Assembly (NCBI GenBank): GCA_946480605.1
Contig: CAMLKW010000138.1
Location: 1 to 11,773, forward strand
Length of the DNA stretch: 11,773 bases
Direction of reading: 5' to 3'
Source of the DNA: an uncultured Roseateles sp.
GTDB taxonomy: Bacteria; Pseudomonadota; Gammaproteobacteria; Burkholderiales; Burkholderiaceae
In this document: positions 470-11,751 of the stretch, one piece after another
How the letters are laid out: every line of letters starts with the position of its first letter
Numbering within the stretch: the stretch's first letter is position 1
Made by a program: the position numbers and the translations under genes
The notes under the pieces: model-generated
Seen by the model: only the letters and a program-made list of their open reading frames with translations
Databases searched by the model: none
What the model was told of the DNA's origin: nothing

Positions 470-498
470 ACTCTAGTTGTCTATACAAGTCAAGTCAA
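470..498 (-). promoter_or_regulatory. Predicted sigma-70 promoter of hutU
   Basis: Read on the minus strand there is TTGACT (498-493, five of six matches to the -35 consensus), a 17-bp spacer, and TAGAGT (475-470, four of six matches to the -10 consensus). Transcription would start near 463, leaving a leader of about 18 nt that contains the GAGGAG ribosome binding site. The palindromic operator lies entirely within the spacer, so a bound repressor would exclude RNA polymerase. A second TTGACT (493-488) forms a direct repeat with the first. This is a prediction from sequence only. Confidence 0.6.
477..488. promoter_or_regulatory. Predicted HutC operator palindrome
   Basis: TTGTCTATACAA is a 12-bp palindrome with one mismatched pair, in the 58-bp region between divergent hutU and hutC. 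HutC is a dimeric GntR-family repressor released by urocanate, and it typically binds such TTGT...ACAA palindromes in hut promoters. A second inverted repeat, CTAGTTG (473-479) and CAACTAG (496-502), surrounds it off-centre and could be a second half-site pair. The site overlaps the hutU promoter spacer and lies just upstream of the likely hutC start, so one operator could control both directions, including autoregulation of hutC. Confidence 0.6.
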
Positions 499-503
499 CT
501 AGC

Positions 504-1232
504 ATGCCGCCTATGCCACGTTCTCCCGCCAGCCCCGAGCCCCAATACCTCAAGGTCAAGAACCATCTGCGCGAGGGCATCGCCAGCGGCCACTGGGTGG
601 CTGGCGACCTGCTGCCCAGCGAGGGGGCGCTGGTGGCGCAGTTCGAGGTCAGCCGCATGACGGTGAACCGCGCGCTGCGCGAGCTGGTGCAGGAAGGGTT
701 GATCGAGCGCGTGCAGGGCGTGGGCAGCTTCGTCGCCCAGCTGCACCGCATCTCGTCGACGCTGAACGTGCGCGACGTGCACGAGGAGATCGTCGAGCGT
801 GGCGGCCAGCACGAGGCGCGCGTGCATGCGCTGGTGAAAGGCAAGGCCACGCCGCAGCAGGCCGCCGAGCTGGGCCTCAAGCGCGGCGCGCCGGTGTTCC
901 TCAGCCTCATCGTGCACCTGGAGAACGGCCAACCCATCCAGTGCGAGGAGCGGGCCGTCAACCCGGCCTGCGCGCCGGACTACCTCGCGCAGGACTTCAC
1001 CCGCATCACGCCCACGCACTACCTGCTGGACGTGGCGCCGCTGTCGGAAGCGCGCTACATGATCGAGGCGGCACTGCCGGGCGAGGTGGAGGCCAAGCTG
1101 CTGGGCATCAACCGGCGCGACCCCTGCCTGGTCGTGAAGCGCATCACGTACAGCCGCGGCGTTGCGGTCACCAGCGTCAGGCTGACCCATCCCGGTGCGC
1201 GTTACCAATTGCAAGGGAGCTTTTCGGCATGA
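504..1232 (+). CDS. hutC: Histidine utilisation repressor HutC (GntR family, UTRA domain)
   Basis: A transcriptional repressor of the hut genes, de-repressed by urocanate in this family. From the ATG at 504 it is 242 residues, normal for HutC. Roughly residues 13-80 form the GntR winged helix (YLKVKNHLREGI, then LLPSEGALVAQFEVSRMTVNRAL as the recognition region, then a wing ending GVGSFVAQ). The rest is the UTRA ligand-binding domain, with typical PVFLSLIVHLENGQPIQ-type and ERAVNP segments and a C-terminal RLTHPGARYQLQGSF. An in-frame TTG at 477 would add nine residues but would put the operator inside the gene; an ATG at 513 is also possible. None of these starts has a strong ribosome binding site. 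It is the first gene of the plus-strand run toward hutDIGF. Confidence 0.93.
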   Translation: MPPMPRSPASPEPQYLKVKNHLREGIASGHWVAGDLLPSEGALVAQFEVSRMTVNRALRELVQEGLIERVQGVGSFVAQLHRISSTLNVRDVHEEIVERGGQHEARVHALVKGKATPQQAAELGLKRGAPVFLSLIVHLENGQPIQCEERAVNPACAPDYLAQDFTRITPTHYLLDVAPLSEARYMIEAALPGEVEAKLLGINRRDPCLVVKRITYSRGVAVTSVRLTHPGARYQLQGSFSA

Positions 1233-1287
1233 CTTTCGGGGCCCTGAGCTGCGGAGAATGACCGGTCCCCGAGTGCGAGGTTAGAAC

Positions 1288-1836
1288 ATGAGTTGGAGCA
1301 AGGTCAGCGCGGCAGACGTGCAGCCGCAGGCCTGGAAGAACAAGGGCGGCACGACCCGGGAGCTGCTGGCCTGGCCGCACGCGCACGACTGGGCGCTGCG
1401 CGTCAGCGTCGCGCACGTGGCGCAGGACGGGCCGTTCTCTGCCTTCCCCGGCGTGCACCGCTGGCTGGCCGTCATCGGCGGCGCCGGCCTGCGCCTGTTC
1501 GACTGGCCGCAGAGCATCGGCGACGACCCGCTGCGCTTCGAGGGCGGCCTGGCGCCGTCCGCCGAGCTGATCAAGGGTGCGACCGACGTGCTCAACGTCA
1601 TGGAGCGCCGCGGCAACCTGGAGGTCGAGCCGGCCAGCCACGTGCTGCTGCCGCGCACGCCGTGGGTGGGGCTGTTCACGGTCGAGGGCGGCCTGCTGGA
1701 GCACGGCCACCGCGCGATGCCGCTGGCGCCGCTGACGCTGGCCTGGTGCGAGGACCCGGCCGCGCAGAGCTGTGTGTTCACCGGTCCTGACGCCACCAGC
1801 AGCCATGCCTGGTGGCTGACCTGGAGCGGTGAATGA
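1288..1836 (+). CDS. hutD: HutD family protein
   Basis: This 182-residue protein belongs to the HutD family, small cupin-like proteins found in proteobacterial hut clusters. HutD has no demonstrated catalytic activity; it has been proposed to limit hut induction by binding a pathway intermediate. The family's N-terminal pattern is clear (QAWKNKGGTTREL, then a W/R-rich WALRVSVAHVAQDGPFSAFPGV stretch and a WLAVIGGAGLRL strand). The gene starts 55 bp after hutC with only a weak GAGG upstream of the ATG. It ends at TGA 1834-1836, with an overlapping ATG at 1833 that looks like the former coupled start of hutI. The terminal-inverted-repeat element begins two bases after the stop. Confidence 0.9.
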   Translation: MSWSKVSAADVQPQAWKNKGGTTRELLAWPHAHDWALRVSVAHVAQDGPFSAFPGVHRWLAVIGGAGLRLFDWPQSIGDDPLRFEGGLAPSAELIKGATDVLNVMERRGNLEVEPASHVLLPRTPWVGLFTVEGGLLEHGHRAMPLAPLTLAWCEDPAAQSCVFTGPDATSSHAWWLTWSGE

Positions 1837-2006
1837 TCCTTGATCCGACAGTTGAGCGCGCACGAGGGGCTGGCGAGGCGGGTTGCTGGCAAGGCGCGAC
1901 GACGCAGCGGGCTCGTGCCCACCAGCGGGCATGCAGCGCTGGGGGGCGGCGTGATGAAGCTGGCGATATCCCGCGGGGTGATGGCGGTGAGGACGGCGTT
2001 GAGTAG
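1833..2006 (+). other. Dead-end reading frame from the former coupled ATG
   Basis: The ATG at 1833-1835 overlaps the hutD stop in the ATGA arrangement usual for coupled hut genes. Read from here the frame passes into the inverted-repeat element and stops at TAG 2004-2006 after 57 codons, out of frame with hutI. The peptide is Arg/Gly/Ala-rich and resembles no family I recognise. It is listed because it is probably a relic of the original hutI start rather than a real gene. Confidence 0.4.
1838..1855. repeat. Left terminal inverted repeat
   Basis: This 18-bp arm pairs perfectly with 2014-2031. It starts two bases after the hutD stop codon. Confidence 0.9.
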
Positions 2007-3210
2007 CAAGCGGTCAACTGTCGGATCAAGGGTTCTGTGGCGCGGCGGCCGGCTGGCCACGCTGGCGGGTGACAGCGGCTGGGGCTTGATCGACGACGGT
2101 GCGCTGCTGGTCGATGGCGGCCTGCTGCGCTGGGTCGGCCCAAGTGCGGACGCGCCCGCGGCGGACGAGGTCGTCGAACTGCACGGCGCGCTGGTCACGC
2201 CCGGCCTGGTGGACTGCCACACCCACCTGGTCTACGGCGGCAACCGCGCCCACGAGTTCGAGCAGCGCCTGCTGGGCGCCAGCTACGCCGACATCGCCAA
2301 GGCCGGTGGCGGCATCCGCGCCACGGTAGCCGCCACCCGCGCCGCCAGCGAGGCGCAATTGCTGGCCGATGCGACGAAGCGTGCTCAGGCATTGATGCGC
2401 GAAGGCGTGACGACGCTGGAGGTCAAGAGCGGCTACGGCCTGGACGCCGCCACCGAGGCCCGCATGCTGCGCGTCGCCCGCCAGTTGCGGGGCTTGGACG
2501 TGCGCACCACCTACCTGGCCGCCCATGCGTTGCCGCCCGAGTTCGACAGCAGCGACGACTACATCACGGCCGTCTGCGCCTGGCTGCCCGAGCTTCACGC
2601 CGCCGGCCTGGTGGACGCGGTGGATGCCTTCTGCGAGCACCTCGCGTTCAGCCCGGCCCAGGTCGCGCGCGTGTTCGACGCGGCCCGGCGCCTGAGTCTG
2701 CCCGTCAAGCTGCATGCCGAGCAGCTCAGTGACCAGGGCGGCGCTGCGCTGGCGGCCGGCTACCGTGCGCTGTCCTGCGACCATCTGGAGTACCTGAGCC
2801 CGTCGGGCATCGCGGCCATGGCCGAAGCGGGCACCGTGGCCGTGCTGCTGCCCGGCGCCTTCTACGCGCTGCGCGAGACCAAGCTGCCGCCCGTGCAGCA
2901 GCTGCGCGATGCCGGCGTGCCCATCGCCATCGCGACCGACCACAACCCCGGCAGCTCGCCCACGCTGTCGCCGTTGCTGATGCTGAACATGGCCTGCCTG
3001 CTGTTCGGCCTGACGCCCGAGGAGGCGCTGCGCGGCCTGACCGTCAACGGCGCCCGCGCGCTGGGCCTGCGCGACCGCGGTCAGTTGGTGGCCGGCCAGC
3101 GCGCCGACTTCTGTCTCTGGGATGGCGGACATCCGCGCGAGCTGGCAGCATGCTTCGGCCATAACCCGCTGAAAGAACGGGTATTCCAAGGCGTCCAGGG
3201 AGGACCATGA
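1954..3210 (+). CDS. hutI: Imidazolonepropionase
   Basis: A metal-dependent amidohydrolase that opens imidazolone-5-propionate to N-formimino-L-glutamate. From ATG 1954 it is 418 residues; the family is usually near 405. Numbered from that ATG: the metal ligands in VDCHTHL (His89, His91) with VYGGNR following, KSGYG near 158, KLHAEQ with His254, CDHLEYL near 275 and ATDHNPGSS near 327. The conserved family N-terminus begins at [14 protein letters not shown] (base 2032), so everything before it is encoded by the inverted-repeat element. ATG 1954 has a GGGGGG run seven bases upstream and is preferred. ATG 1981 (409 residues) and an in-frame TTG at 1840 (456 residues) are alternatives. The stop overlaps the hutG ATG by four bases (ATGA), indicating translational coupling. 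Confidence 0.93.
2014..2031. repeat. Right terminal inverted repeat
   Basis: This 18-bp arm is the reverse complement of 1838-1855. It ends immediately before the conserved N-terminal beta strand of HutI. Confidence 0.9.
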
Positions 3211-4007
3211 GCGTGTTTCAACTCCGGCAGGGCCGCGTGCCGCTGCTGATCAGCCTGCCGCACGTCGGCACCGAGATTCCGGCCGGGCTGGCCGAGCGCC
3301 TGGTGCCGCGCGCTCTGGCCAGCGAGGACTGTGACTGGCATCTGGAGCGCCTTTATGCGCCGCTGGCGCAGGCGCTGGGCGCCAGCCTCATCGTGGCGCG
3401 CTACAGCCGCTACGTCATCGACCTGAATCGCCCGCCCGACGACCAGCCGTTGTATCCCGGCGCGGCCGGCGGCACCGGCCTGGCGCCCACGTGCTTCTTC
3501 TCCAGCGAGCCGCTGTACCGCGACGGTGCCGAGCCCGATGCGGCCGAAGTCTTGGCCCGCCGCGAGGCCTATTGGCAGCCCTACCACGATGCACTGGCCG
3601 CCGAGCTGGCGCGGCTGCGCACCGAGCACGGCCGCGCGCTGCTGTTCGACGGCCACAGCATCCGCTCCGAGCTGCCCTGGCTGTTCGAGGGCCGGCTGCC
3701 GGCGCTCAACCTCGGCACGGCCGACGGCGCCTCGTGCGCACCGGCCATCACCCAGCGCCTGGGCGCGCTGCTGGCCGGCCAGGACCGCTACAGCCAGGTC
3801 GTCAACGGCCGGTTCAAGGGGGGTTACATCACGCGCCACTACGGCCAGCCGTCGCAGGGTCAGCATGCCGTGCAGCTGGAGATGTGCCAGCGCTGCTACA
3901 TGGACGAGGCGCAAGACCCGCGCACGGCCTACGACGAGGCCGGTGCCGCGCAGGTCGCGCCGCTGATCGGTGCGTTGCTGGAGGAGATGCTCGCATGCCG
4001 GCCCTGA
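3207..4007 (+). CDS. hutG: N-formylglutamate deformylase (N-formylglutamate amidohydrolase)
   Basis: Hydrolyses N-formyl-L-glutamate to glutamate and formate, the last step of the five-step histidine pathway. The 266 residues match the usual family length. Visible family blocks are [13 protein letters not shown] (14-25), [10 protein letters not shown] (41-50), [13 protein letters not shown] (64-76), LLFDGHSI (145-152), LNLGTADG (167-174), [13 protein letters not shown] (201-213) and [13 protein letters not shown] (220-232). The His and acidic residues within these blocks are the likely metal and substrate ligands. This is the N-formylglutamate amidohydrolase type, not the arginase-like formiminoglutamase that shares the hutG name in enterics. 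That agrees with hutF next door. The gene overlaps hutI by 4 bp and hutF by 13 bp. Confidence 0.95.
3981..3986 (+). promoter_or_regulatory. Ribosome binding site of hutF inside hutG
   Basis: GAGGAG lies eight bases before the hutF ATG at 3995, within the last codons of hutG. It fixes the hutF start and argues against any of the longer in-frame extensions upstream. Confidence 0.75.
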
Positions 4008-5380
4008 AGCGCCTTCACGCCCCCATGGCCTGGGTCGACGGCCGCTGGCAGCACGACGTGCTGCTGACCGTCGACGCGAGCGGACACTGGTCCGAGATCA
4101 CCGTCAACCTGCCGGCGCCGGACGACGCCGAGAAGCTCGCCGGGCCGCTGATTCCCAGCCTCGTCAACGCCCACAGCCACGCCTTCCAGCGCGCCTTTGT
4201 CGGCCTGGCCGAACGCCGCGAGGCGGGGCAGGACGATTTCTGGAGCTGGCGCGAGCGCATGTACGCGTTGGCGCTGCGCATCTCGCCGCAGCAGCTGCGC
4301 GCGGTGGCCGCCCAGCTGTATGCCGAGCTGCTGCGTGGCGGCTACACGCAGGTCTGCGAGTTCCACTACGTGCACCATGCGGGCCATGGTCAGCAGTTCG
4401 ACGACGAGCTCGACATGGCCTGGGCGCTGGCCGAGGCCGCCCAGGACGTGGGCATGGGCCTCACACTGCTGCCGGTGGTCTACACGCGCAGCGGCTTTGG
4501 CGCCGCGGGCTTGCGGCCCGAACAGCACCGCTTTGCGGCCGATGCCGACTGGGCCTGGCGTTGCTGCCAGCGCGTCATGGCCGCCGGCCTGCCGCGCGTC
4601 AACGCCGGGGTGGCGCTGCACTCGCTGCGCGGCGCGACAGCGGCCGACATTGCTCGCCTGCACGATCTCATCGGCGGGGCCGACCTGCCCATCCACATCC
4701 ACGTGGCCGAGCAGATGGCCGAGGTCGAGGACTGCCTGGCCGCCACCGGCCTGCGGCCGCTGCAGTGGCTGGCCGAGCACGGGCATCTGGACCCGCGCTG
4801 GCAGCTGGTGCACGCCACGCACGCCGAGCCGGCCGAGATCGAGGCCGTGGCGCGCAGTGGTGCCGGCATCGTCATCTGCCCCGGCACCGAGGCCAACCTC
4901 GGCGACGGCCTGACCGACCTGCCCGGCTGGCTGGCCGCGCGCGTGCCGCTGACCGTGGGTTCGGACAGCCAGGTCACGCGCGGCTGGGTGGAGGAGCTGC
5001 GCTGGCTGGAGTACGGCCAGCGGTTGGCGTTGAGGCAGCGCAACATCGCCGCCGTGCCGGGCCTGCAGCCGTCCAGCGCGGCGCGGCTGTTCGACGCGGC
5101 CGTGCACGGCGGTGCGCGCGCGGCCGGCTTTGCGGCCTGGGGCCTGACGCCCGGCGCCCGTGCCGACGCGCTGGTGCTGAACCGCGAGGCCGACGGCCTG
5201 CGGGGCCTGCCCGACGACGCGCTGCTGGACGCAGTGGTGTTTGGCAGCAACGGCTCGCCATGGCAATCCGTCTGGGTGGCCGGTCGTGCGCGGCCCTGGC
5301 GGGCGCCGCAGCGCGTAGGCGACGGCTTCGAGACAGCCATGCGGGAGCTGTGGCTTGGCGAGGCTGCGGTGAAGGGCTAG
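3995..5380 (+). CDS. hutF: Formimidoylglutamate deiminase
   Basis: An amidohydrolase that deiminates N-formimino-L-glutamate to N-formyl-L-glutamate and ammonia, feeding HutG. The protein is 461 residues, close to family length. The fold's metal ligands are visible: NAHSH (His60, His62), IHIHVAEQ (His234, His236), QLVHATH (His273) and VGSDSQ (Asp324). FHYVHH near 123-128, LHSLRG near 209-213 and [13 protein letters not shown] (293-305) are typical HutF blocks. The open frame extends upstream through hutG, but family similarity begins at this ATG, which has a good ribosome binding site. The overlap with hutG suggests coupled translation. No obvious terminator follows in the 43 bp before the chemoreceptor gene. 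Confidence 0.95.
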
Positions 5381-5423: not shown

Positions 5424-6977
5424 ATGAAGCTGAGCAATTTCACGATCAAGGCCCGCCTTTACGCGCTTGCGGGGCTGGCGATGGTGGCCATGCTGCTGAT
5501 AGGCCTGCACGGGTTGTGGAGCCTGTCGCAGGCCAAGACCAAGTTCGTGCACTACCTCGACAACGACGTCGAGTCGCTGACCCAACTGGCCCACATCCGC
5601 GCCGGCGTCGGCAACCTGCGCCGCTACGAGAAGGACCTGCTCATCAACCTGGCCGACGCCAAGGCCGTCGAGCGCTACCGCAAGGACTGGGACGAGACCT
5701 ATGGCAAGGTGGCCGCCAGCCTGACCAAGGTGGCCGGGCTGGACATCGCACCCGACGTCAAGCAGATGCCCGCCGAGCTGATCCGGCTGCTGCAGGACTA
5801 CCGCGGCGGCTTCAGCGGCATCGCCGAGCGGCTGTCCAGGGGTGAGTTTGCCGACACGGCGTCCGCCAACCGGGCCATGGAGCCCATCAAGGGCACGGTG
5901 CGCGCCATGGACAAGGCGCTGGCCGACATGACCGAGAAGGTCGACAAGCACTCGCTGGAGGAAGTGGCCGTGCTGGACCGACAGGAGCGCGCGATACGGA
6001 TGGACCTCACGCTGGTCATCATCGGCGGTGTGCTGGTCATCGGCACCTACACGATGTTCAACATCCGCTCCATCCTGGAGCCGCTGGCGCGTGCCGTCGC
6101 CAGCGCCCAGCGCATCGCCGGCCGCGACCTGAGCCAGCCCGTGCGCGCCGAGGGCCGCGACGAGACGGCCGCGCTGATGCGCGGCGTACAGAGCATGCAG
6201 GACTCGCTGCTGCAGGTGGTCTCGGGTGTGCGCCAGAGTACCGACAGCATCGCCACGGCTTCGCACGAGGTGGCCGTCGGCAGCCAGGATCTCAGCCTGC
6301 GCACCGAGCAGGCCGCGTCCAACCTGCAGGAGACCGCGTCGGCGATGGAGGAGCTGACGGCCAGCGTCACTCACAACGCCGAGTCCGCGCGCCAGGCCAA
6401 CCAGTTGGCGACCGACGCTGCCGCCGTCGCGCGGCGCGGCGGCAGCGTGGTGGACGAGGTGGTCACGACGATGCAGCGCATCAGCGCGTCGTCGGCCAAG
6501 ATCGCCGACATCATCTCCGTCATCGACGGCATTGCGTTCCAGACCAACATCCTCGCGCTGAATGCGGCTGTCGAGGCGGCGCGGGCCGGCGAGCAGGGCC
6601 GCGGCTTCGCGGTCGTGGCCGGCGAGGTGCGCACGCTGGCGCAGCGTTCGGCCGAGGCGGCCAAGGAGATCAAGGCGCTCATCACCCAGAGCGGCGAGAA
6701 CGTGCAGGGCGGCGCGGCGCTGGTGGCTCAGGCCGGCCAGACCATGCACGAGATCATCGACGCGATCGCGCGCGTCAGCAGCATCGTGTCGGAGATCAGC
6801 CATGCCACCGGCGAGCAGAGCACCGGCATCGGCCAGATCGGCCAGGCCATCGCGGGACTGGACCAGATGACGCAGCAGAACGCCGCGCTGGTGGAGGAAT
6901 CCGCCGCGGCGGCCGCCAGCCTGCAGCAGCAGGCCGACGAGCTGTCGCGTTCGGTGGCGGTGTTCCGGCTCAGCTGA
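5424..6977 (+). CDS. Methyl-accepting chemotaxis protein
   Basis: A 517-residue transmembrane chemoreceptor that signals to CheA/CheW. There is a short cytoplasmic N-terminus, TM1 at about 11-32, a periplasmic helical region (about 33-193, probably a four-helix bundle), TM2 at about 195-213 and HAMP at about 214-267. The signalling coiled coil follows, with its conserved hairpin around 362-405 ([15 protein letters not shown], then [21 protein letters not shown]). Methylation-type Glu/Gln/Ala helices flank the tip. There is no C-terminal CheR/CheB-binding pentapeptide; it ends VAVFRLS. GAGGAGGA immediately before ATG 5424 fixes the start over an ATG at 5394. It lies 43 bp after hutF on the same strand, so it may be co-expressed and sense histidine, urocanate or another amino acid. 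The ligand cannot be read from the sequence. Confidence 0.93.
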
Positions 6978-7986
6978 GCCTGAAGGCCGGTCGCAGCGCG
7001 CCGACCTCGGTGCCGCGCCAGTTGCGCAGCACGAGGTGGCTGTAGCCGCGCAGCACCGCGTCCTCGGTTCTTAGCAGCGCCTGCGCGACGGCGGCCATCG
7101 TGCCTTCGGCGGCGCGCGCGGCGCCGTCGTCTATCTTCAGTGCCACGCCCAGGCCCAGCTCGGGCAGGGCCGCGCAGTACACGCCTTCGGCGCCGATCTT
7201 GCAGAACAGCCGCTCCCCGAAGGCCTGCATCACGCGGGTGTCGAAGCGGTCCGTGCCGCCCACCATGAAGGGCGCCGCCGCAGCCGCCTGGCGCAGCCGG
7301 CGCGCGGCGCGGGCGTTGCCACTCGACAGCCCCTGGCCCGTGCCGCAGCGCGCGAAGGCCAGCGCCAGCGCGCGCAGCGGCAGCGCAAAGGTCGGGATGG
7401 AGCAACCGTCGATGCCGCGCGGCGCGCGTTCGGTGTCCAGGCCGGTCGCCGCCGACAGCGCCGCCGTGACCTCGCGCATGACGGGGTGCTCCGCCGCCAC
7501 ATAGCCGCGGGCGAACTCGGCGGGCTCCGCGCCGGCGCCGCGCGCCATCAGGCAGGCCACGCAGACGAAGCCGCTGTGCTTGCCGGAGCAGTTGTTGTGC
7601 AGCGGCGTGGCGACCTCGCCGCGCGCGGCCATCGCGCGCAGCACCGGCTCACGGCCGGGCCACTGCGTGCCGCATTCCAGCGCGTCGGCGTCCAGCCCCA
7701 GCCTGGCCAGCATGCCGGCCGCAGTGGCCACGTGTTCGGGCTCGCCGCTGTGCGACGCGCAAGCCAGCGCCAGCTCGGCGTCGGTCAACCCGAACGCATC
7801 CGCTGCGCCGCTGGCCACCAGCGGCAGCGCCTGCAGCAGCTTGACGGCCGAGCGCGGGAAGATAGGGCGGTCCACATCGCCCAGCGCGGTGTGGACGGTG
7901 CCGGACGCATCGACGATAGCCAGCGCGCCGGCATGGCGGGATTCGACGGCGCTGCCGCGCAGGACTTCGATGAGGATGGGGTTCAT
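6970..7986 (-). CDS. L-asparaginase, Rhizobium-type (PF06089 asparaginase II family)
   Basis: Predicted to hydrolyse L-asparagine to aspartate and ammonia. The 338-residue protein has the features of the Rhizobium etli-type asparaginases, unrelated to E. coli AnsA/AnsB: a Ser-x-x-Lys pair in FPRSAVK (Ser46, Lys49), [10 protein letters not shown] (76-85), LHNNCSGKH (Cys133, Lys136) and RGIDGCSIP (Cys195). The two Cys and the Lys match the zinc site described in that family. The ATG is preceded by AAGG about nine bases upstream. The gene is convergent with the chemoreceptor gene, their 3' ends overlapping by 8 bp. It lies 45 bp downstream of the VWA gene on the same strand, so readthrough is possible, but its GC-rich codon use matches the hut side. 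Confidence 0.9.
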
Positions 7987-8031: not shown

Positions 8032-9654
8032 TCACAGCACCACCACTTCGTCACTGAAGCCATCTGCGCTTCGCACCCCTGCGCAAAGCACCGAGTAAAT
8101 GCTGCAATCCAGGATCGACTTGCGCATTTGCAGCCAGTTGGCGAACTCGGACGATATGCGGGCGTCGCCGTCGGAAATCATCAGGACGTCGGCCTTCAGG
8201 TACTTGTTGTGCTCGCCGATGATGTCGAGCGCATGCCGGAGCGGCGTCTCGAAATCCGTGCCGCCTCCAAAGTCCTGCCGGAGAAACTTCAGCAGGCCCG
8301 CAGAGTCGCTTGCGTCTGTCATCGAAAACTCGCGAATCTCGCCGCTGGCACCAAACAGCAGCACATGCAGCGAGCGATTCTCAGTCTTCAGCATGTTTGC
8401 AATCGCGAGCAGCAAGGCCTTGCCCTTGAGGATGGGGCCGCCTTTCATGCTGCCCGAAGTGTCCAGGCAGGCCACCACGGGGCCTGTGCGCATGCGATGG
8501 AGCTCATCCTCGTCGCCAGTGGTTGAGGTCACGCCCTGCAGTTCGTAGGACTGCAATCCGTTTTCGAGCAGGCGGGCGAAGAACAGGGTTTCCAGCGTTT
8601 CGTTTTCCAGATTCAGCAGTTCGCTGGGTAATGCGCGCATCAGGTCGGCGCTGCGGTGGATGCCATGCACTTCGCTATTGCCGGCCTGAGGAATCTTGGC
8701 GCGCTTCTTCTTTTCCGCCGAGATGTGGTTGCGGCCCAATTGGCGGCTCAACTCCTTGATTTGCCTGCCGTCCTGGAGGATCTGGGCCAGCGCTGCCAGT
8801 TCCGCCTTGCCGGTCTGCAAATCGCCGTAGGTGAAACCTGCGTTCGGGCAATGGCTCAGGAAATCCTTGGCCGCCTCGTAGGTCTCGACAATGGCCGCCA
8901 TGGCCAGGCGGTGGCGGGCCAGATGCTGCAGGATGGCGGGGGGCAGGTTCTCGTCGCCGACCTCCGCTTCATAGGCCAGCGTGTCGGCGAGTTCTGCGTA
9001 GACCCGCGCCATGTTGTCGTCGTTCAGCGGGATGTTCTTGAAGTGGTCGGTCAGCGCCTGCCAGTCGGGCTCCGGCATGGATTCGCTGGGCTCCCCGTGC
9101 TGGGCCTGCCAGTCCCAGAGCCGCCATTTGGTGGCGCCGAGTTTCTTGCGCGCGGCGAATTTCAGCGCCAAGAGGGTGGGTTCCCAAGTGGTGGGGACGT
9201 CGATCGACTCCGCCAGCGACGCTTGAAATTCGAGCCCGGAGGTTTCAACACAGCGGGTGGAGAACTGGTGGCAGTTCTTGATCACTAGGCCATAGAACGC
9301 TCGCTCTCCGACCTCGCTGGAGGCGGCATGCGCAACCCGTCGATGCCCTACCGCGCCGGCCCCGTCACAAGAGACGTAGATCAATTTGCGGTTCGGCTTG
9401 CTCCTGGAGGTGAAGTCCGCAGGTCCGCTGCGCCGCACGGTGCTTTCGGCCTTGAGCAAGCTGTCGACGACGATGTTGGAGATCTCTCCGTCATCGATGT
9501 GGATGCCGGAGTGCTCGACGGCGCCCAGCAGATCGCAATACACGACGCTACCGGCCACGGGGGTGACCTTGTCGCGAAGGTGGCTGTCGATGAAATACCG
9601 CATGTGCCGCAGGCCGGCGACGATATTGGCAACTCCGAGAACGACAGGCAGCAT
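8032..9654 (-). CDS. ViaA-like VWA-domain protein with N-terminal LRAT/NlpC-P60-like domain
   Basis: A 540-residue protein combining two modules. Residues about 34-140 look like an LRAT/H-rev107-type (permuted NlpC/P60) domain: GSVVYC, EHSGIHIDDGEI with candidate catalytic His48, and IKNCHQFSTRCV with candidate nucleophile Cys128. Residues about 150-385 are a helical middle region resembling the ViaA spacer, including a basic EKKKRAK patch. Residues about 391-540 are a VWA domain with a complete MIDAS: DTSGS (398-402), Thr466 in FGGGTD and Asp495 in ISDGD. GPVVACLDTSGSM and FLRQDFGGGTD closely resemble E. coli ViaA, the partner of RavA. The start is six bases after the ATPase stop with no clear ribosome binding site, suggesting coupling; ATG 9603 is an alternative start. 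The LRAT call is from motif pattern only. I do not know its substrate. Confidence 0.8.
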   Translation of the reverse strand: MLPVVLGVANIVAGLRHMRYFIDSHLRDKVTPVAGSVVYCDLLGAVEHSGIHIDDGEISNIVVDSLLKAESTVRRSGPADFTSRSKPNRKLIYVSCDGAGAVGHRRVAHAASSEVGERAFYGLVIKNCHQFSTRCVETSGLEFQASLAESIDVPTTWEPTLLALKFAARKKLGATKWRLWDWQAQHGEPSESMPEPDWQALTDHFKNIPLNDDNMARVYAELADTLAYEAEVGDENLPPAILQHLARHRLAMAAIVETYEAAKDFLSHCPNAGFTYGDLQTGKAELAALAQILQDGRQIKELSRQLGRNHISAEKKKRAKIPQAGNSEVHGIHRSADLMRALPSELLNLENETLETLFFARLLENGLQSYELQGVTSTTGDEDELHRMRTGPVVACLDTSGSMKGGPILKGKALLLAIANMLKTENRSLHVLLFGASGEIREFSMTDASDSAGLLKFLRQDFGGGTDFETPLRHALDIIGEHNKYLKADVLMISDGDARISSEFANWLQMRKSILDCSIYSVLCAGVRSADGFSDEVVVL

Positions 9655-9660
9655 CGTCGG

Positions 9661-11751
9661 TCAGAGCCAGATATTGGCGCGGCACTGCTGCTCCAGCAGG
9701 TCTTCGCACGGCCCGGATGAATCGGCCGGCGGGCCTGCCATGAAGCTCGCGGCCACGCCCACCGTGCGCAGCGCGGGCCGGTGGCTCTCGGCATCCCAGC
9801 GCCAGACGTCCTGGAAATTCCAGTTCAGGGCGTTCTCGAAATAGCGCTGCGCCATTAACGCAGCCGCGATGGTTTTGCCGTCTTCTCCCTCGGCAGAAGA
9901 CTTGCCGGGATGGCCGTCGAGGGCAACGTTGTTGACCAGTTTGGCATCCGCCTTGATGTCGAAGGCGATTCGCCGGCCCAGTGTCGCGTGACGGCCAAGC
10001 GCGAGATGGCTCAAGGCGCAATCCTTGATGCTGGCTTTCTCGACCCTGTGTGCGATGCCGCTTAGTTTGATTTCGTAGTTGCTGCCGCTGCTGATCGACC
10101 CGGTGACGACGCAGCGTTCGCAGCTGCCGCCGCGCAATGCGCTGGTGACGCCACCGACTTCCAGGTTCCTGTCGCTCTTGAAGGTGTAATTCAACTCGAC
10201 CAAGCAGTCCGCGATGTTGCAGTTGATGGCCTGCTCCGAGATCAATGGCCACCCCGTTTGGCACTGGGAAATCACGCAGTTTTCTGCGGAATGGGCGATC
10301 GATAGTTTGGCCAGACAAGATGTCAGCTTGCAATCGACCGCCTTGGCCGAGATGAGGTGGCTGTCCGATTCGCAAGCATGAATCGTGGATTTGCCAGCCA
10401 TGGCCAGGAGCGGCACATTGCTCGCGCATTGCTCGATGCTGCAGCCATGTGCAGCGCTGGCCAGGGAGAAATTCTCCAGATTCACGCCGAAGATCCGCGA
10501 GCCCGGCTGCACCTCCTTGAAGAGAAATGAGCCCGTTGCGGGCTTGCGGTCCGGGCCTGTGATGGTGTGGCCGCCGCCGTCGAAATGGCCCTTGAAGACG
10601 ATGTCATGCAAGTGGGTCAGTTCGGCACAGCTGATGTCGGCGACCTGACGGAAGTGATGGCCGCGCTGGCCGACGTCGGGAAGGTCGAGATGCAGCAAGT
10701 CTTCCATCGTCGCGATCAGCAGCGGATCCGACGCGGTGCCGCTGCCTTTGAACCCTCCAATGACGGTGCCCGTCTGGCCGCGTGCCGGCATGGGCAAGGG
10801 CGAAGACCGCTCTGAAAGCTCGACGGGCTTGCGAGGCACGGCATGGCTGAACCGCCGCAGCGTGGTGACGATGATCTCCCGGACCTTGCTGATGTTGTCG
10901 GGGTGGCTCCACAGGCAGTCCTTCAGCAGCAGGACATCGGACAGGTCGACCTCCTTGCGGCCGTTGCTGGCGGCGGCAATGCGCAGCAGCTTGACGACCT
11001 TCTTCAGCCGGCGGTCGGACAGCGTCTCGCGGGGGTCTTCCTTGAAGACTTCCCGATGTCTGCGCCAGACCGTCTGCACGGCCTCGGCGACGTCGGGCGG
11101 CAAGCTGACTTCGCCGGCATCCCTGCGCAGAGCGTCAATGCCTTCGGAGCTGATGCGACAGCCATCGGGCAAGGGGGGCTCGTCGGCGTGGGTGAACAGC
11201 AGCGGGAGTTGATCCAAGCCGACATAGTCGACAAAGCTTCGCACGAGGAAGCGGTCATACAGCGCGCTGAGTTCCTCCTGGCCGGTGGGCAGTTCGTTGG
11301 ATGCGGCGACCAGCCCCAGCAGCGGCACGTCTTCTGCACGGGCGCCGTTGTGATACTTGCGCTCATTGAGGATGGTCAGCAGCGCGTTGAGGATGGACGA
11401 GCTTGCCTTGAAGATTTCATCCAGGAAGGCCACGCGCACGCTGGGAAGGTAGCCGGACGTGTTGCGCACGAAGCGGTCTGCCTTCAATTCGGCGATCGAC
11501 AGTGGGCCGAAGAGTTCTTCCGGCGTGGAGAACTTGGTCAGCAGGTATTCGAAGTAGTCGGCATGCAGCGCATCCTTGCTCAAGGCCTTTGCAATCCTGC
11601 GAGCGACCAGGCTCTTTGCCGTGCCTGGCGGCCCGATCAGAACGATGTTCTCGCCAGCCAGGATGGTGAGCAAAGCGGCCTTCGTGGCAGCTTCGCGGTC
11701 TACGAGACCTTGGTTGAGGTGTTGCAGCAGGTTCAGGATCTTTTCGCGCAT
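9661..11751 (-). CDS. RavA-like MoxR AAA+ ATPase with C-terminal GLUG/adhesin-type beta-helix
   Basis: A 696-residue fusion. Residues 1-305 are a MoxR-class AAA+ ATPase very close in pattern to E. coli RavA: Walker A GPPGTAKS (40-47), FSTPEELFGPLSI (74-86), Walker B VAFLDEI (107-113), sensor 1 VAASN (148-152), arginine-finger region LYDRFLVR (164-171), sensor 2 region LSDRRLKK (244-251) and LLLKDCLW (274-281). After a Pro/Gly-rich linker (about 306-334) comes a non-RavA region: GFKGSGTASDPLLI (333-346), HFDGGGHTITG (389-399), then coils with a (C/S)xIxxC ladder. It closes with WNFQDVWRWD (644-653) and RPALR. These are hallmarks of GLUG/adhesin repeat proteins. RavA's triple-helical and LARA parts are absent. 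No signal peptide is visible, so it is likely cytoplasmic. The start has no clear ribosome binding site, and only 22 bases lie upstream in the window. Confidence 0.85.
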   Translation of the reverse strand: MREKILNLLQHLNQGLVDREAATKAALLTILAGENIVLIGPPGTAKSLVARRIAKALSKDALHADYFEYLLTKFSTPEELFGPLSIAELKADRFVRNTSGYLPSVRVAFLDEIFKASSSILNALLTILNERKYHNGARAEDVPLLGLVAASNELPTGQEELSALYDRFLVRSFVDYVGLDQLPLLFTHADEPPLPDGCRISSEGIDALRRDAGEVSLPPDVAEAVQTVWRRHREVFKEDPRETLSDRRLKKVVKLLRIAAASNGRKEVDLSDVLLLKDCLWSHPDNISKVREIIVTTLRRFSHAVPRKPVELSERSSPLPMPARGQTGTVIGGFKGSGTASDPLLIATMEDLLHLDLPDVGQRGHHFRQVADISCAELTHLHDIVFKGHFDGGGHTITGPDRKPATGSFLFKEVQPGSRIFGVNLENFSLASAAHGCSIEQCASNVPLLAMAGKSTIHACESDSHLISAKAVDCKLTSCLAKLSIAHSAENCVISQCQTGWPLISEQAINCNIADCLVELNYTFKSDRNLEVGGVTSALRGGSCERCVVTGSISSGSNYEIKLSGIAHRVEKASIKDCALSHLALGRHATLGRRIAFDIKADAKLVNNVALDGHPGKSSAEGEDGKTIAAALMAQRYFENALNWNFQDVWRWDAESHRPALRTVGVAASFMAGPPADSSGPCEDLLEQQCRANIWL
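9961..10443 (-). repeat. Coding region of the beta-helix coils with the Cys ladder
   Basis: Residues about 437-597 of the ATPase fusion. Five successive segments carry (C/S)xIxxC-like hexads (CSIEQC, STIHAC, CKLTSC, CVISQC, CNIADC) starting at residues 437, 455, 474, 492 and 511. The period alternates 18 and 19 residues, as expected for the rungs of a right-handed beta-helix. Later degenerate rungs include the segment around CERC (544-547) and ASIKDC (573-578). This is protein-level repetition; the DNA itself is not a strong repeat. Confidence 0.6.

Follow-up and report, generated by a model that had tools for sequence, protein, structure and literature searches.

What does a domain of the LRAT enzyme family do when it is joined to a VWA domain and encoded beside an AAA+ ATPase? 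The question is raised by an 11,773-nucleotide stretch of DNA from an uncultured Roseateles sp. (contig CAMLKW010000138.1, hereafter the window), in which an inspection of the letters alone (the sequence-only reading) had proposed an LRAT/H-rev107-like domain fused to a ViaA-like VWA domain next to an AAA+ partner. Positions 8032-9654 were found to encode, on the minus strand, a genuine 540-residue VWA-LRAT fusion, the plus strand in the same frame being interrupted by stops. The profiles, the structure model, the conserved residues and the constant pairing with the AAA+ gene agree in supporting the proposed identity, an LRAT/H-rev107 branch member of NlpC/P60 fused to a ViaA-like VWA domain. 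Newly seen here, and absent from the sequence-only reading, is that the C-terminal region of the AAA+ partner is exchangeable. Taken together, and with a probability of roughly 0.5, the pair may form an ATP-controlled two-gene switch, in which an LRAT-type effector would be gated by an ATPase bearing a variable recognition module. The two genes are:

8032..9654, minus strand: VWA-LRAT fusion gene, 540 amino acids (open frame; homologue search).
9661..11751, minus strand: RavA-type MoxR AAA+ ATPase gene, 696 amino acids (AAA_5, lid and RavA profile).

Homologue search with the fusion protein returned 742 proteins at E <= 0.001, the query counted; among the 120 best, listed with the query, the other 119 share 57-63% identity over 97-100% of its length. 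The AAA+ gene lies 6 bp upstream of the fusion gene on the same strand, and it precedes the fusion gene in 10/10 genomes, with a spacing of 4-32 bp in 8 of the 9 measured loci (window included). The window protein (P0001) shows three extra residues (67-68 and 91) that are missing from the 119 other aligned proteins. Additionally, an incomplete second copy of the VWA part was observed near a contig end (L035, 9004-9438), in the same genome as locus L002.

The N-terminal part of the fusion protein, on which its possible enzymatic activity depends, is made up of the following elements:

9235..9609, minus strand: LRAT/PLAAT-like permuted papain domain, residues 16-140 (profile, model and residue conservation).
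9511..9513, minus strand: His48, predicted catalytic base (120/120; aligned to the His of HWAIYVGDG in HRASLS2; codon checked).
9475..9477, minus strand: Asn60, predicted third (polar) triad residue (Asn in 120/120 of the fusion family).
9292..9294, minus strand: Tyr121, seven residues before the Cys (120/120; aligned to the HRASLS Tyr).
9271..9273, minus strand: Cys128, predicted nucleophile and first residue of helix 128-137 (120/120; aligned to the Cys of NCEHF in HRASLS; model).
9250..9252, minus strand: Cys135, second cysteine at +7 (120/120; 41/42; 73/76).
9109..9126, minus strand: WRLWDW motif, residues 177-182, its shared WRLW being 177-180 (end of the region common with the closest solo LRAT proteins).

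Against Pfam LRAT (PF04970) the window protein alone reached E 0.004 and 17.9 bits, below the gathering score of 24.3; the check on the family gave a significant match, all 34 scanned members matching at E <= 0.1 and the best at 1e-5, and PF04970 stands in the precomputed annotation of 9 of the 120 listed fusion homologues. A profile of 42 sequences, solo LRAT proteins among them, matched HRASLS/PLAAT structures with a best E of 6.5e-6. Structural modelling was carried out on the LRAT domain alone with a 76-sequence alignment, an earlier full-fusion model (34 sequences) having been discarded for its poor LRAT region (mean predicted local distance difference test score, pLDDT, of 57.6). In the domain model, strand 47-52 bears His48 and helix 128-137 is begun by Cys128, consistent with the permuted papain arrangement of a His on an N-terminal strand and a Cys opening a C-terminal helix, and the best Foldseek matches are PLAAT/HRASLS. 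The six closest solo LRAT proteins are 37-42% identical over 70-82% of the query, and at the WRLW site close solo relatives show WR in 6/6 and WRxW in 5/6. Since a Colwellia-type solo LRAT (L023) sat in query alignment A2, the E-values obtained for proteins of this type are inflated; a fusion-only profile recovers them as well (15 of the 120 scored shown). At L023 itself, the solo LRAT gene adjoins a tyrosine-recombinase-like gene, named by eye (243-1908).

The His...Asn-Cys pattern claimed from the letters was found as described, with EHSGI carrying H48 and KNCHQF carrying C128, and the loss of His48 or Cys128 in close homologues that would have spoken against it was not seen: H48, N60, Y121, N127, C128, H129, F131 and C135 are each kept in 120/120 aligned proteins, query counted, all of them close relatives at >= 57% identity. 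In the wider set of 42 with solo LRATs, H48, Y121, N127, C128, H129 and F131 are each present in 42/42, and in a set of 76, H48 and Y121 occur in 76/76 and C128 in 75/76, the sole exception being a 139-residue fragment (P0269). The third triad position is more variable, with Glu in 21, Asn in 15, His in 5 and Asp in 1 of the 42, and close solo proteins, P0327 and P0337 among them, have His there. Tyr121 is put forward as the catalytic Tyr on the basis of its alignment with HRASLS. According to passages of PMC3142127, permuted NlpC/P60 enzymes use a Cys, a His, a polar third residue and a Tyr, to which LRAT adds a second Cys at +7; Cys135 fits the LRAT pattern because it lies seven residues beyond the predicted catalytic Cys.

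The C-terminal part of the fusion protein is occupied by one further domain:

8035..8490, minus strand: VWA domain with complete MIDAS (D398, S400, S402, T466, D495), residues 389-540 (PF13519; ViaA profile; codons checked).

It matches PF13519 at E 2.9e-8, and the NCBIfam ViaA profile (NF008230) is matched over residues 275-498 with 122.1 bits (E 3.6e-35), short of the equivalog cut-off of 500 bits, so that the protein is best described as ViaA-like, not ViaA. Its five MIDAS residues are each at least 97% conserved in the 120 proteins. Both profiles and this conservation bear out the complete MIDAS and ViaA-like character that the sequence-only reading had assigned to the domain.

The AAA+ partner can be divided into a core, a variable region and a short tail:

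10861..11751, minus strand: AAA+ core and lid, residues 1-297 (Pfam, NCBIfam and structure-profile matches).
9703..10755, minus strand: variable C-terminal region, residues 333-683, a probable right-handed beta-helix (profile versus 3n6z; PF13229; repeats seen by eye).
9664..9702, minus strand: conserved C-terminal tail, residues 684-696, ending in NIWL (motif count among partners).

Its core matches AAA_5 (E 1.9e-27) and the lid family (E 1.1e-18) of Pfam. The RavA NCBIfam profile (NF010054) scores 258.3 bits over residues 2-294, corresponding to profile positions 8-298 of 498, and the equivalog cut-off of 681 bits, which takes in the C-terminal half, is missed; a profile of 47 partners matches RavA structures at 1.2e-90. 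To judge from these matches, the partner appears RavA-type in its core only. The match to PF20030 (bpMoxR, 7.7e-56 on the AAA+ protein) was dropped as evidence for a ternary conflict system, since this profile matches 12/14 control genomes, E. coli included. At the opposite end, N-[ILFMV]-W-[LIV] closes the protein in 101/121 partners and falls within the last 12 residues in 3 more, being missing from the terminus in 17/121, several of them apparently truncated.

Between core and tail, the variable region was classed in 122 partners, namely 120 listed by core similarity, the window protein and that of L002. A beta-helix-like region was matched in 114/122 by a profile built from at most 60 long partners that are themselves among the 122, and three of these (P0122, P0144 and P0184) also carry a lipoyl domain. 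Seven of the 122 carry a lipoyl domain only, with two copies in P0218 and the weakest case, P0215, detected by phmmer alone, while P0195 (1/122) shows neither; P0145, with a marginal lipoyl match, was left out of the lipoyl count. In a Pfam scan of 47 partners, Biotin_lipoyl was found in 8/47 (best 1.1e-33), a proportion that gives no rate because the 47 were chosen to take in odd lengths, and Beta_helix (PF13229) in 2/47 (best 0.0015); PF00364 also stands in the precomputed annotation of 8 of the 120 listed partners. The partner profile matches 3n6z over positions 348-604 (E 4.3e-4), a chain that we take to have a beta-helix fold. This match, the two PF13229 hits and the repeat pattern seen by eye suggest that the region is probably a right-handed beta-helix. 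The lysine motif of the lipoyl domain, judged by eye, is intact in P0123, P0218, P0144, P0163, P0229 and L002, absent in P0211 and P0122, and ambiguous in P0184 and P0215. The tail motif is retained where the lipoyl domain stands in for the beta-helix-like region. L002, a Giesbergeria metagenome-assembled genome, displays at 6600-7970 a RavA-type core, a lipoyl domain with its lysine motif and the tail CANFWL, in that order.

The C-terminal region of the AAA+ protein diverges far faster than the LRAT domain, the VWA domain and the AAA+ core. Over ten unclustered loci (45 pairs), on which this conclusion rests, the AAA+ protein shows mean pair identities of 66.6% (core), 37.8% with 16.6% gaps (variable region) and 64.2% (tail), to be compared with 67.6%, 55.5% and 68.5% in the LRAT, linker and VWA parts of the fusion protein. 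Constraint on the LRAT part thus equals that on motor and VWA domain, as would be expected of a working enzyme. In a group of 16 clustered proteins, a common core and tail enclose mosaic-looking C-terminal regions. Over 104 pairs of clustered proteins with near-identical cores, mean identity is 99.3% for the core and 84.1% for the region; the low identity of the region is here partly ascertainment, the protein database being clustered at 90% identity. Extra beta-helix-like DNA copies were considered as a source of this variability and rejected, genome G007 holding only the known copy at the DNA level, where diverged copies could escape.

From these elements we infer catalysis and its substrate, a hexamer, gating by ATP and an involvement in stress or conflict, as follows; an ATP-gated enzyme acting on lipids or peptides had also been suggested by the sequence-only reading. 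The fusion protein would act as an LRAT/PLAAT-type Cys-His(-Asn) enzyme through its N-terminus and as a ViaA-like VWA protein through its C-terminus. A hexamer of the RavA-type ATPase might engage the VWA protein and use ATP to hold or release the active enzyme, while the C-terminal part of the ATPase, be it beta-helix-like, lipoyl, both or in rare cases neither, would serve as a swappable recognition module that sets the trigger of the switch or its docking place. The likeliest target would be the acyl groups of membrane phospholipids, attacked by phospholipase/acyltransferase chemistry via an acyl-cysteine, and cleavage of proteins or peptides would come second; lipid and peptide substrates cannot be told apart from sequence. 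Membrane lipid is preferred because LRAT enzymes work on lipids and RavA and ViaA bind phospholipids. Passages of PMC9489729 describe phospholipid binding and inner-membrane localization for E. coli RavA and ViaA, as well as changed lipid homeostasis upon ViaA overexpression; LRAT-family enzymes are placed at the lipid-water interface in PMC10318531, and permuted NlpC/P60 members are credited with hydrophobic S1 pockets in PMC3142127. Among the themes of conflict systems described in PMC7159879 are MoxR acting on vWA-held cargo and vWA proteins that carry a fused effector domain.

Several observations weigh against such a switch. A profile of the 34 full fusions alone gives no PLAAT match at E <= 0.1, only one Foldseek match of the domain model has E <= 0.001, and the third triad residue of the fusion family is Asn rather than His. 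The ViaA match ends at profile position 428/487, leaving the C-terminal lipid-binding helix of ViaA unmatched, and no clear membrane span is seen at the N-terminus of the fusion, with 5/116 proteins passing the score used. In locus L005 the two genes stand 735 bp apart, and in 7/10 fetched loci, whose neighbours were partly scanned, no PADLOC-class neighbour was found. An N-terminal membrane span was also rejected as unsupported by composition; the N-terminal helix shows moderate amphipathicity, with a mean moment of 0.52 and a mean hydrophobicity of 0.16.

Regarding distribution, the VWA-LRAT/AAA+ unit is rare and patchy. In genome samples that overlap and all contain the centre genome, strong fusion matches (E <= 1e-40) occur in 4/399, 3/399, 1/398, 1/369 and 2/61 genomes, and a further sample has a match in 1/6. 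At E <= 0.001, 19/369 genomes match; of the 19 places outside G002 in this sample, one covers the LRAT part (G147) and the rest lie on the linker or VWA side. A search of IMG/VR by two peptide patterns did not bring up a relative, no match to phage and plasmid records spans 80% of the query, and the LRAT part is reached by none of the 10/10 phage rows or of the best 20 of 62 plasmid rows. PADLOC 2.0 holds no family matching the fusion protein at E <= 1 and gives two weak matches on the AAA+ protein, one over 28 residues (E 0.017) and one over 40 (E 0.022). PADLOC-class genes lie near the unit in 3/10 fetched loci (L004, L007 and L034), as judged from 16 neighbours at 8 loci that were picked by eye and have no background rate. 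These are type I restriction genes, plus an integrase, at L004; a PADLOC candidate pair, PDC-M38A/B, 67 bp downstream of the fusion gene at L007 (9715-11549); and a ZorA/ZorB-like pair some 3 kb upstream of the AAA+ gene at L034 (321-2763). An MqsA-type antitoxin gene stands downstream at L001. By eye, the loci do not share a third gene, such as the VMAP, iSTAND, FtsH-type or beta-propeller partner that forms the third core component of MoxR-vWA ternary conflict systems, the neighbours being partly profiled and the window stopping at the AAA+ start. In the four plasmid records inspected (L037, L038, L039 and L040), out of seven with a solo LRAT related to this domain, the LRAT is a single gene beside IS66 elements or transposases, an integrase or toxin-antitoxin genes, and no VWA gene is annotated in the plasmid stretch around it. 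The window further carries an asparaginase II gene, a chemotaxis-receptor-like gene, so named from its translation, and at 477-5380 what we presume to be a histidine-utilization (hut)-type cluster with a GntR-type regulator, imidazolonepropionase-like and related proteins.

This distribution bears on a tentative but serious possibility, abortive-infection defence, in which the variable AAA+ C-terminus would sense an invader and the LRAT domain would then damage the membrane, or a key protein, of its own cell. Its rarity and patchiness, its exchangeable, fast-changing and sensor-like AAA+ region, the PADLOC-class genes at three loci and the plasmid-borne solo LRATs, which are cargo beside mobile or toxin-antitoxin genes, argue for it; the neighbours chosen by eye, the absence of an IMG/VR relative by the two patterns, the phage and plasmid rows that leave the LRAT part unmatched, the missing PADLOC model for the fusion protein and the remaining loci, which by eye resemble housekeeping contexts, argue against it. 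Doubtful in its full detail is a so far undescribed immune-type switch, whereby an invader or insult would be recognised by the exchangeable, rapidly diverging region of a RavA-lineage ATPase (beta-helix-like, or lipoyl as bait), and the ATPase would then free a VWA-fused PLAAT-type phospholipase/acyltransferase onto the bacterial membrane. Lipoyl domains are normally part of large metabolic complexes, which would suit a maturation factor like RavA/ViaA, the pair remodelling a client enzyme that the LRAT domain trims or acylates and that the beta-helix-like or lipoyl domains dock. The strong kinship to RavA and ViaA favours this option, as does the binding of E. coli RavA to its client LdcI through the LARA domain, reported in passages of PMC9489729, but it appears unlikely, since fast C-terminal divergence would be odd in docking a conserved metabolic client, no third gene is common to the loci by eye, and the lipoyl lysine motif is absent in P0211 and P0122.

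The two other alternatives concern the chemistry of the LRAT domain. It would be a peptidase rather than a lipid enzyme if it processed a protein, perhaps the AAA+ tail (...NIWL) or a VWA-bound peptide. The strong conservation of that tail, the many peptidases of the superfamily (excerpts of PMC3142127) and the peptide binding of vWA MIDAS sites (sections of PMC7159879) point this way, and the proposal nonetheless seems improbable. Very unlikely is a catalytically dead domain kept as a mere binding or membrane-docking module; Asn in place of the canonical third His speaks for it, but the catalytic positions are identical in 120/120. Papain itself has Asn as its third catalytic residue. In LRAT, moreover, this residue may be dispensable, according to a passage of PMC3142127.

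LRAT enzymes, RavA-ViaA pairs and vWA-effector fusions are already known. In the open-access literature searched, no description was found of the LRAT-VWA-AAA+ combination or of a beta-helix-like/lipoyl exchange in one ATPase slot. In E. coli, RavA-ViaA influences membrane lipids as well as sensitivity to aminoglycosides, through a mechanism not yet settled (PMC9489729); with an apparent lipid enzyme fused directly to a ViaA-like partner, a connection of this ATPase pair to lipids would become directly testable. The gated switch would also represent a MoxR-vWA unit whose ATPase itself bears the recognition region, exchangeable between two unrelated folds in one slot, and, if it were a defence system, would add a PLAAT-type effector to defence.

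Compared with known systems, the N-terminal domain shares with PLAAT/HRASLS and LRAT (PF04970) the fold, the His on a strand, the Cys at a helix start in NC..F and the Tyr at -7, and with LRAT the second Cys at +7, but it is bacterial, joined to VWA and has Asn in the third triad position. Bacterial LRAT proteins that stand alone, named 'lecithin retinol acyltransferase family protein' on plasmids, have in the six closest cases a related LRAT region up to its WR(x)W end, and differ in being single genes without VWA and with His or Glu at the third position. The MoxR-vWA ternary conflict systems of PMC7159879 likewise combine a MoxR ATPase with an effector-bearing vWA protein; the words LRAT and lipoyl are absent from the text of that paper, and the present unit differs in having two genes (no third component by eye), in its RavA/ViaA lineage and in an effector placed N-terminal to vWA. 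Finally, the unit shares with E. coli RavA-ViaA the RavA-type AAA+ core and lid, the ViaA-like VWA domain and the gene order of AAA+ followed by VWA. On the contrary, the RavA C-terminal part (profile only to 298/498) and the ViaA lipid-binding helix are unmatched, both equivalog cut-offs are missed, and an LRAT domain at the N-terminus of the VWA protein and a beta-helix-like or lipoyl C-terminus in the ATPase set the unit apart.
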